A stretch of 64,000 bases of DNA, taken from positions 78,445,249-78,509,248 of the forward strand of contig OZ038423.1 of assembly GCA_964036155.1 (NCBI GenBank), in the 5' to 3' direction. Under the pieces are notes generated by a model, which searched no databases, had not been told where the DNA came from, and saw nothing but the letters and a program-made list of their open reading frames with translations. The first letter of the stretch is position 1. Every line of letters starts with the position of its first letter. Origin of the DNA: Diploscapter coronatus. Its lineage: Eukaryota; Nematoda; Chromadorea; Rhabditida; Rhabditidae. This document shows positions 24,843 to 27,709 of the stretch, piece by piece. The position numbers were made by a program, and so were the translations under genes.

Positions 24843-27709
24843 ATGGTTTATATCGGCATCGATTTGGGCACGACATATTCGTGTGTTTCTGTCATCGAGG
24901 ATGGACGACCTGTTGCAATAATTAACGAAGATGGTAAATGAAAGTTTATTATTCAAAAATTCACCACTTTCAAGATAATCCAATATTTTTATTGAATATC
25001 GATAAGATTGTTGGATAAGAACTCTTCATGAATGATTCTTCATTTGGACTTCGTCATATTCAGGGAAACCTACGATGCCTTCAGTAGTTGCATATTGTGA
25101 ACCAGAAATTCTCGCTGGGAATCCTGCCCTAATGTGCAACACAGACGTGACGAATATTCTATACGGTTAGAAGGAATGAAATCGTAAAAATAAAGAATCA
25201 TTGAAGATTCAAAAAGACTAATTGGTTGGAAATTCCTGCATGATTTGCCGAACGCTGAGAGTCGACAATTATGGACTTTTAACGTTGATACGAGAAATGT
25301 AAAATTGCTAGAATTCATTTTAGAGTGATATGTTTAGAGTAAAGCTGGTTATGTCTTGAACAAGGGAACTGCTAAGGATAAGTTTCTTAAACCCGAAGAA
25401 GTTTCTGCTGAGATCTTGAAGAAACTGAAAGCAAATGCTGAGGTTAGGCTAGTAGAAAATCTATTTTAAAAACAATTGATGCAGAAACATCTCTCGACGA
25501 AAGTGACCGGTGCAGTTGTCACAGTGCCTGCTCTATTCAATTCTGACCAAATTGCTGCCACAAAGAGAGCCGTTGAACTGGCTGGACTCGAATTGAAATA
25601 CTTGCTGGAAGAGCCCACTTCGGCTGCAATCGCTTACAATCACAAAAAGAAATTCGAGAATTCGAAACTCTTGATCTTCGATTTCGGAGGAGGTTGATTT
25701 GGAATATTTTGGTGAGAAATTATAGCAGATTTTCAGGTACTCTCGACATAAGTATCGCTGAGATTAAAGACAAAAATCTCGAAGTAAAGGCTGTTGGTGG
25801 GGATACTCAATTAGGTAAAACGGATCAATAGAAGTTTTAAACATATGATTAACTTAGGCGGGCAGGATTTTGATGGAAAAATAATGAAATATTCAATTGA
25901 TGAGTTTTCCAAATCGTCGTCGAACTGTGATATTGTTAAGAAGCCGAAACTAATAAAACGATTTCGCACTGCTTGTAAAGAAGGAAAGGAAGCCCTTTCT
26001 TTCAATCTCTCGTCGTACAATATCCATGTAGAGCTAATCATCGAAATTTTTACATCATAGTCTATTTCTAGATCGACATAAACGATGAATTAGATCTAAA
26101 CGTTGCCATGACCCCGAATAAGTTGAACGAGCTATGTAATGAGTTGTACACCAAGGCTATGCATCAGGTGGACAATGTACTGAATACAGCACAATTGAAA
26201 GCATCACAAATCGATCATGTGGTATATTTATAGTTTTATTGATTACTTTCTGCATCCTTATTTATTTTTAGATTTTGGTTGGAGGAATGACCAGAATTCC
26301 TTTTCTACAGCAAAAATTAGCAGATAAATTCGGAAGGAATAAGTTGAAATTCGATATAAACCCAGACGAAGCTGTTGCTTACGGAGCAGCGATTGTCGCA
26401 AATGCTTTGGAGGTTTGAAAACAAACAATTCATTACTAAAATGGAAGTGATAATTTCAGAAAGGAATCGCAATGCCATTGATTAACAATACAATGAATGA
26501 ATTAGCCCGAAACATCAATAGCTTGCAGATTGGTGGAGACAATTCATTCAATAATTCGCATAAAATTTTATTTTATCGTAAGAAATTATGTTGAAAGTTA
26601 GAGACTTTGAAATGATTCATAATAATTTAGATTTATATCGAAATAATCTTAAAGATGAAGGAAGGATATGCTTGTTCAATTCACTTACCTACTCAGTAGA
26701 AGAGATTGCAGAATTCCATGATTGTTATGCGCCATATGAATTAGCAACTACACAGAATAAAGTAAATTTGTATGTTCATTATTTTGAATAATTTTTTAGG
26801 TTTCAGATTTTTGCAATTAACGACGAAAATAAATCTTTTGAAATATATGATTTGAATACTCGACAAATTTCAAGGGGTTTCATCAACAAATCCATGAATG
26901 ATCGATTCAAAGAATTTTACAGGTCCAAATCCTCCTGAATGGCGTGATGGTGCATCTGTGGCTTATTTCAAAGACAAATTGTATTATTTGGGTGGAGAGG
27001 ATCTTAAAACATCTGAACGGACTAATCGAGTTAATGTAAGAAGGTCGAATGAAGGTCCGTAAAATAATTAATTCAGGTTTTAATAGATGGAAAATGGCAA
27101 GCAGGACCTGCTTTTCCTCTTCCAATTTGGAATGCTCAGACAATAACATGCGATGAAATTTTATACGGTCATATTATAGCATATTCATTATTGTAACTAT
27201 GGGTATTCAGTTATTGATGGATGGTATAGCAATATGATATATCGATTATCAGATGATGAACGGGAATGGATGGAAATCGAAGAGATTCCAGAAAGACGAA
27301 TTTCTTCCGAAGTTGTATCGTTAAATGGGAAAATTTATATAGCTGGAGGATTGAAGTCGTTAATTTTGTATGATAAATAATGTATCATTATATATTTAGT
27401 TATTTAAATCTATTAAAATCGTGTCTGTGTTTCGACCCCTCAGCTCCAGTTGACAGTCAAATTTCTAAAATCGCCGATATGAATTATGCAAGGATGGATC
27501 ATTCGCTCATTGTCACTAACGGGAAATTGTATACAATCGGAGGGTGAGCTGGGATTTTGCATATCTTTATACCAAATATTTGTTAACTTAGATTTAAAAA
27601 TGCTGCGAAAAAAAGTGCTGGTTTATATCATGCGATAAACTTCTGTGACGTTATTGAAGAATACGATCCACAAACGAATGAATGGCGAGAAGTTGGGAAA
27701 TTAACATAA
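24843..27709 (+). CDS. Hsp70 ATPase domain fused in frame to kelch repeats
   Basis: Seventeen exons: 24843-24933, 25064-25165, 25207-25298, 25338-25442, 25485-25692, 25737-25814, 25858-26027, 26072-26221, 26272-26412, 26460-26577, 26631-26761, 26807-26876, 26923-27035, 27077-27167, 27211-27355, 27400-27543, 27592-27709. All phases agree; 688 aa. Residues 1-379 are an Hsp70 nucleotide-binding domain: [17 protein letters not shown] (catalytic Lys), [43 protein letters not shown] linker follows (~380-418), then kelch blades (~419-688) instead of the substrate-binding domain. The kelch half is homologous exon for exon to the gene at 18483. No signal peptide, so probably cytosolic. A plausible role is ATP-dependent client handling through a propeller; this is inference. 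Alternatives are two overlapping genes or an expressed pseudogene. Confidence 0.8.

Follow-up and report, generated by a model that had tools for sequence, protein, structure and literature searches.

A gene at positions 24843-27709 on the plus strand of a 64,000-nt stretch of the Diploscapter coronatus genome (C2:78445249-78509248, hereafter the window, to which the coordinates without a chromosome prefix refer) was found to encode an Hsp70 nucleotide-binding domain (NBD) that runs in frame into a kelch domain. The gene, which has 17 exons and a predicted product of 688 amino acids (aa), belongs to a multi-copy Diploscapter family. A comparison of the predicted family members showed that the catalytic residues of the NBD are retained nearly throughout and that the family has lost the J-domain-contacting arginine, the aspartate of the substrate relay, the interdomain linker and the substrate-binding domain. 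The ratios of nonsynonymous to synonymous substitution rates (dN/dS) that were calculated from the copies show an NBD under purifying selection and a kelch part in which the predicted DA loops change fastest (approximately 2) and the BC loops next (approximately 1). Tentatively, we favour the reading that in this family an Hsp70 NBD may now serve as the head of a recognition protein with a kelch propeller. As far as the literature was searched, a Diploscapter family that combines an Hsp70 head with a kelch part whose predicted ligand face appears to be diversifying is new; the searches revealed no earlier description of a Diploscapter NBD-kelch family, and the papers that were retrieved with 'Diploscapter' and 'kelch' were off-topic as judged by their titles and the start of their abstracts.

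The reading frame opens with an ATG at 24843, and its stop codon ends at 27709, which gives 2067 nt, i.e., 688 codons and the stop. No internal stop was found over the 17 exons, and the 16 introns (39-130 nt) are all of the GT-AG type. The initial annotation of this DNA, which had reported 17 in-phase exons without a stop and 688 codons, proved exact to the base; a spliced alignment of the fusion protein to the window also returned identical exons, although this is a consistency check only. Exons 1-9 (24843-26412; protein residues 1-379) encode the NBD, which was recognised using Pfam PF00012 and aligns over its full length with solved Hsp70 NBDs. They are followed by the phase-0 intron 9 (26413-26459), a linker exon, exon 10 (26460-26577; residues 380-418), the phase-1 intron 10 (26578-26630) and exons 11-17 (26631-27709), which encode the kelch repeats. 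The HSP70 model matched residues 4-379 (E 2.1e-106) and ended at position 376 of 599, having begun at position 2, and Kelch_1 (PF01344) matched downstream of the NBD (E 3.1e-20), which confirms that the substrate-binding half of Hsp70 has been replaced by kelch. Solved relatives were also found for the kelch part, in which approximately six blade units were counted by eye, the sole structure model being that of a relative with an incomplete kelch. There was no Pfam match to a BTB/BACK head in the fusion protein, and no match to an F-box head in the fusion or elsewhere in the window.

The two modules are most likely joined at the phase-0 intron between exons 9 and 10, because exon 10 also precedes kelch at loci that lack NBD exon 9. 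Ten such matches, with no exon 9 within 300 nt upstream, were found in eight NBD-less blocks (C1:9103948, C1:33322167 with two, C1:68013194, C1:81472723, C2:729628, C2:10880460 with two, C2:43889676 and C2:55478464). Five of the ten are whole or nearly whole at 76-82% identity, or 72% in the case of C2:10880460, and the rest are partial; the examples in C1:68013194, C2:55478464 and C2:729628 have 77-82%. The initial annotation had placed the junction at exon 10/11, in a phase-1 intron that it also recognised in a neighbouring kelch gene (18483-20186). That intron does lie at the same position in the neighbour (19063-19122), and the six introns that follow match in phase, so that introns 10-16, beginning with the one behind the linker exon, all have equal phases in the two genes. 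The proposed junction, however, was not borne out, as exon 10 itself travels with kelch in places without exon 9. A join inside exon 10 with an NBD-specific linker was rejected for the same reason, the whole linker exon being found before kelch at such loci. Exon 10 ends in ILFY, which is similar to the beginning of the kelch module of F-box-like kelch proteins, and in those of D. pachys the shared part begins later, near ..LFY. Among the NBD-kelch loci, the identity of the linker exon to the copy in the window ranges from 27 to 95%.

The genome that was searched comprised 169.7 Mb in three contigs (C1, 87,717,704 bases; C2, 81,972,245 bases; C3, approximately 13.4 kb). The whole unit across the junction was found in six other places, on both chromosomes, at a DNA identity of 84-90%, and in a seventh at 74%. 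When draft versions of the halves were used as queries, the NBD half matched in at least approximately 85 separate places (a hand count, with the best 99 of 1744 candidates scored), and the kelch half gave at least 310 matches, exon by exon (with the best 136 of 3220 candidates scored). Of 56 merged stretches that were modelled with a spliced aligner, 13 held full-length copies, six of which had neither a frameshift nor a stop (the window; C2:76975517; C1:39212479; C1:39898400; C2:36723200; and the minus strand of C1:84058000-84077900). All of the intron positions are kept in the intact copies, apart from a single shifted one in each of C1:84058000 and C2:36723200, and an origin of the copies by retrotransposition was rejected because their introns persist. 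Kelch was present downstream in 17 of the 27 places that had been picked by their NBD, and in 15 of these it lay 185-330 nt after the NBD; the 17 include C2:19406369, which is a remnant, and C1:27272586, which was seen only via an overlapping stretch that was taken for its kelch. A tree was built from 47 NBDs, and a branch with a support of 100/99 sets 34 loci and four D. pachys proteins apart from six other Hsp70 loci, two outgroups and D. pachys P0033. All of the deep groups apart from C1:59636676, a long branch on its own, include kelch-bearing members, and the well-supported branches require the kelch label to change at least four times. A tandem pair of NBD genes (L023/L035, C2:19406369-19411969) has a kelch remnant alone in view, and kelch-bearing clades also contain further NBD genes for which no kelch is in view.

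The family extends to Diploscapter pachys, in which the best protein match of the draft fusion query was P0001 (91% over 60% of the query); P0003 aligned over 88% of it, and P0002, P0007, P0009, P0121 and P0151 matched both Pfam Hsp70 and kelch. Outside Diploscapter, the matches to the kelch half were all kelch proteins (23-33% identity), with no Hsp70 listed for any of them, although distant fusions could escape such a search. The gene had initially been presented as a chimera with an architecture known from no standard family; it is indeed a real in-frame fusion, but not a one-off. A chimera unique to the window was rejected, as the whole unit recurs elsewhere in the genome and in D. pachys, and so was an assembly artefact or break, given the many loci, on both chromosomes, at which copies are contiguous and the separately annotated D. 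pachys proteins.

The 34 family NBDs, whether kelch-bearing or not, were compared with the six Hsp70 loci of the same genome using residue numbers that we take to be those of Hsc70. Lys71, Glu175, Asp199, Lys271 and Arg342 are present in all 34, Ser275 in 33, Asp206 and Thr204 in 31 each, and Asp10 and Thr13 in all 31 of the members in which they are in view; the copy in the window retains Asp10, Thr13, Lys71, Glu175, Asp199 and Asp206. Glu268 is kept in none of the 34 members (Arg in 23, Lys in ten, Cys in one), and neither is Arg272 (Glu in 33, Lys in one); each is retained in five of the six comparison loci. At the corresponding residues 266 and 270, the fusion in the window has Lys and Glu, and Ser340 is Met in ten of the 34 NBDs, including this one. 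The changes at Glu268 and Arg272 look like a charge swap inside the adenosine pocket that has become fixed in the family. The initial claim that the binding and catalytic residues are kept is, then, right for the catalytic and phosphate-side residues but not for the adenosine-binding ones. The equivalent of DnaK R167, which is described as bonding with the aspartate of the HPD motif of the J-domain (PMC8215388), is Tyr in the window copy and is Arg in three of the 34 members compared with five of the six comparison loci, and the equivalent of D148, to which relay of the substrate signal is ascribed (PMC7289447), is Asp in four members and, again, in five comparison loci. The loss of a residue at any given site of the NBD is not rare, because only 137 of 246 positions that are invariant in five Hsp70 loci are kept in at least half of the members, while 55 are never kept. 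Among four further residues of the J-side, Y145 and N170 are found in none of the 34, N147 in 20 and T173 in 18. In the Hsp70 loci L001, L003 and L005, the NBD continues into a hydrophobic interdomain linker, DLLLLDV or DVLLVDV, and then SLGIETAGG; L006, a divergent Hsp70, has no linker of this type. In the fusion, neither such a linker nor the SLGIETAGG start was found in the sequence after the NBD, and the NBD itself is 42-46% identical to those of four Hsp70 loci of the genome. Because several tested features that define an Hsp70 (the linker, the substrate-binding domain, the J arginine and the adenosine pocket) are missing or altered in the predicted protein, we would not class the fusion as an Hsp70 chaperone.

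The initial annotation had proposed dN/dS across the fusion as a check, and the two parts gave separate ranges: 0.11-0.20 for the NBD (ten pairs among five close intact copies, the sixth being saturated at silent sites) and 0.46-0.83 for the kelch (15 pairs among the six intact copies). The variability of the kelch was analysed in 27 copies, leaving out those with stops, fewer than 225 codons or less than 55% identity. It peaked at adjacent residue pairs in four blades (494/495, 541/542, 584/585 and 634/635), in the first blade around 450-455 (450, 452 and 455) and in the stretches that follow the GG doublets. Alignment with designed kelch proteins places the variable pairs at DA-loop and the post-GG stretches at BC-loop positions. 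The pooled dN/dS of the 27 copies was 2.09 +- 0.29 for the DA pairs, 1.11 +- 0.12 for the BC stretches and 0.46 +- 0.02 for the rest. Similar values were obtained for the 13 fusion-borne kelch copies (2.13 +- 0.48, 1.19 +- 0.19 and 0.45 +- 0.04, respectively) and the 14 others (2.08 +- 0.36, 0.99 +- 0.17 and 0.48 +- 0.03). In a control with five random residue pairs, the observed nonsynonymous difference (pN) was reached in one of 5000 draws and the observed dN/dS in 37 of 5000. When the phase of the DA pairs was scanned, pN was maximal at the chosen position and dN/dS one residue on (2.67); dN/dS exceeded 1 between -4 and +2 and once more close to the BC stretch. In KLHL20, the substrate surface is described as being shaped by the DA and BC loops (PMC6720452), and in KEAP1 these loops are reported to hold NRF2-binding residues, a DA loop being the site of N414 and R415 (PMC10146909).

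The two parts of the fusion differ in their history. Mantel tests on 16 copies, lesioned ones among them, gave r = 0.94 for NBD half against NBD half (0/2000 permutations as high), 0.18 for NBD against kelch (252/2000) and 0.05 for kelch half against kelch half (752/2000). Relative to the window, C2:76975517 has a synonymous divergence (dS) of 0.109 in the NBD and 0.282 in the kelch; in C1:84058000, the silent sites of the NBD are saturated and the kelch dS is 0.261, and the identity to this copy climbs near 26443-26543, at the linker exon. The simplest reading of this discordance is that recombination or gene conversion has probably occurred among the kelch copies. Kelch is also found behind other heads: an F-box-like exon, assigned from UniProt names and from Pfam F-box-like scores under the cut-off, ends 45-65 nt before kelch in six of the 56 blocks (L042, L043, L044, L046, L053 and L067), and a head that we call 'domain X' lies at most 1.2 kb upstream of kelch in five (L052, L054/L055, L057, L059 and L060). 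For several kelch copies among the 56 blocks, no head was recognised. 'Domain X' is the head, of approximately 120 aa, of the neighbouring kelch gene, in whose protein Pfam matches kelch alone; by eye, it also occurs, combined differently, in D. pachys P0123, P0148 and P0032.

Under the reading that we favour, the variable loops would make up the substrate face, like those of KLHL20 and KEAP1, and the pattern of the loops argues fairly strongly that the propeller captures particular, changing targets. The NBD could act as a nucleotide-dependent switch or as a docking head through which a constant partner receives the captured target, because its catalytic residues have been spared while the coupling parts were lost; the argument is a moderate one, and the altered adenosine pocket weakens it. 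Such a head would work without J-proteins and without the classical grip and release of unfolded peptides, and recombination among the kelch copies would shuffle the specificity. As for the targets, selection and copy number lead us to the guess that they may be foreign or selfish proteins, which would make the family an intracellular recognition repertoire. In its full form, this idea supposes two dozen or more NBD-kelch proteins on an Hsp70 head. Their ligand face would be diversified both by selection and through recombination with a larger stock of kelch cassettes on which F-box-like heads also draw; the logic of such a repertoire would be that of the nucleotide-binding leucine-rich repeat proteins (a nucleotide switch plus a variable repeat) with a separate origin. 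We consider this extension possible but doubtful.

Several observations weigh against the favoured reading. A frameshift or stop is present in the spliced models of seven of the 13 full-length copies, and no kelch is in view at ten of the 27 NBD-picked places, where 377-1554 nt are visible (in one of the ten, C1:59812886, the linker is in view and a kelch match lies just beyond). Several D. pachys models, e.g., P0001, P0018, P0022, P0023 and P0026, exit early from the kelch frame. The DA and BC residue sets were defined after the entropy plot had been seen, the pair chosen in the first blade (453/454) misses the peak of variability, and the dN/dS values are pairwise counts on copies that seem to recombine. 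The DA loops were assigned by the alignment with designed proteins and not from a structure of the fusion itself. In the predicted structure of D. pachys P0003, whose kelch is incomplete, the NBD is confident and the blades that are present are middling, with a predicted local distance difference test (pLDDT) score below 50 at 382-489; a fold search of the PDB with this model had Hsp70s among the best 50 rows listed. Moreover, the altered adenosine pocket may weaken or change the use of nucleotide, and the family is known here from DNA and predicted proteins alone.

The neighbouring kelch gene (18483-20186, plus strand) is intact, with 11 exons and 387 aa in a spliced model, and 170 of 259 residues of its kelch are identical to those of the fusion. 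At 22987-23190, on the same strand, lies a 3' scrap of a kelch module, whose DNA matches the end of the fusion and the adjoining flank at 90% identity. The 5' flank of the fusion (24578-24842, plus strand) is common to the copy at C1:51080030 (95-96%), and many other fusion copies have other 5' flanks that are held in common among themselves. An inverted repeat with arms at 17916-18047 and 28536-28667 (92% over 133 nt) encloses the block 17916-28667. A repeat at 28150-28500, part of which is also present at 20300-20560, is dispersed: with the best 40 of 584 genome candidates scored, few of the listed places adjoin NBD or kelch loci. A transposon with terminal inverted repeats carrying the fusion as cargo was not supported, the repeat in the 3' flank being a dispersed element. 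Just 3' of the fusion there is an insert (27848-28150) that resembles a short interspersed nuclear element and has a T run at its start, and upstream of the fusion there is a direct repeat (24457-24744) of approximately 125 nt with 78% identity; tRNA and Rfam scans of the window gave no matches. D. coronatus is described as diploid, with 170 Mb and 2n = 2 (PMC5483258), and C1 and C2 behave as homologous chromosomes, because the stretch at 34000-37500 of the window has a single long partner elsewhere, on C1 (C1:84077684-84081245, 87%). The homologous region, C1:84058000-84077900, was examined as a possible empty site; instead, it holds its own fusion, which is inverted there and has 430 of 680 residues identical.

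Of the other explanations, the one closest to the initial annotation is that of a chaperone with a new client-binding module, in which the ATP cycle of the NBD would open and close a kelch-client complex. The retained catalytic residues, the purifying selection on the NBD and a kelch face that resembles a binding surface are all consistent with it, and kelch has indeed taken the place of the substrate-binding half. It is weakened, however, because the linker and the R167 and D148 equivalents have been lost nearly family-wide and the adenosine pocket is altered; the linker exon would also have to provide a new coupling route, yet it varies widely between the copies. We regard this explanation as unlikely. 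It is also rather unlikely that we are dealing with a decaying or selfish multicopy family in which recombination spreads fusions that are mostly idle. The lesions in more than half of the full-length copies, the kelch scrap nearby and the adjoining dispersed repeat would fit such a family, whereas the low dN/dS of the NBD, the complete frame in six copies, the catalytic residues retained in nearly all 34 NBDs and the 5' flanks that are common among copies would not.

Adaptation to heat was proposed in PMC6872716 for 'Cluster III' of the Diploscapter Hsp70s, which is described there as comprising 59 genes found only in Diploscapter, with positive selection on its root. One of the proteins named in that paper, dp_WR25_05901, is P0021, the only one that could be matched by name, and the D. 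pachys relatives of the fusion probably belong to this cluster; the main text of the paper, supplements aside, contains none of the terms 'kelch', 'NBD', 'substrate-binding' or 'truncated'. The lack of a substrate-binding domain in the fusion speaks against such a role, as do sites that resemble heat shock elements (at most one mismatch): ten were found in 28 family upstream regions (approximately 5.4 expected) compared with 15 in five comparison regions (approximately 1.0 expected), whose start sites were set from the first NBD match. Without the divergent L006, the comparison regions had 11 sites against approximately 0.8 expected. The family sites are somewhat more frequent than expected by chance, but they are remote from the ATG, the nearest being at least 303 nt away among the matches listed. 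Heat adaptation as the explanation of the family seems improbable to us. Still more improbable is that two neighbouring genes were misread as one. Genes in nematode operons can sit close together, and the fusion is known from DNA, but there is no stop after the NBD, and the frame stays open across introns of 47 and 53 nt into the linker exon and then kelch. The spacing of kelch behind the NBD is also kept within 185-330 nt in nearly all of the 17 places, and D. pachys has annotated single proteins. The many contiguous copies and the D. pachys proteins with both domains make an assembly break unlikely, and two separate genes likewise.

If an Hsp70 NBD did become the head of a kelch recognition protein, a variable recognition system would have taken over a chaperone NBD as its constant head, and one target-binding module would be common to Hsp70-type and F-box-like heads. 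What has been published as an amplification of Hsp70 'for heat' would then be the expansion of a family of domain fusions whose recognition face is diversifying. Both the role of an Hsp70 NBD without a substrate-binding domain and J-protein contacts and the ligands of the changing kelch face could be tested in a small culturable worm. Among known systems, Cluster III is, like the fusion family as far as the searches went, an Hsp70 expansion that is confined to Diploscapter, the heat reading being that of PMC6872716. The canonical Hsp70, Hsc70 and BiP have the same NBD fold and catalytic residues as the fusion, but their hydrophobic linker and substrate-binding domain are absent from it, and the J arginine, the relay aspartate and two pocket residues are replaced. 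HSPA13/STCH, like the fusion, is an Hsp70 NBD without a substrate-binding domain; to our knowledge, it has no kelch and forms no comparable multicopy family. The BTB-kelch adaptors KEAP1 and KLHL20 have kelch repeats, as in the fusion, and use their DA and BC loops as the substrate face, but their head is BTB-BACK instead of an Hsp70 NBD. The D. pachys proteins P0143, P0144 and P0147 have the same kelch module, joined near ..LFY, and carry an F-box-like head (below the Pfam cut-off) where the fusion has its NBD. The expanded F-box and MATH-BTB adaptor families of nematodes are likewise large and lineage-specific and show positive selection and fast-changing target-binding parts; unlike the fusion, with its Hsp70 NBD, they carry the heads of ubiquitin ligases.

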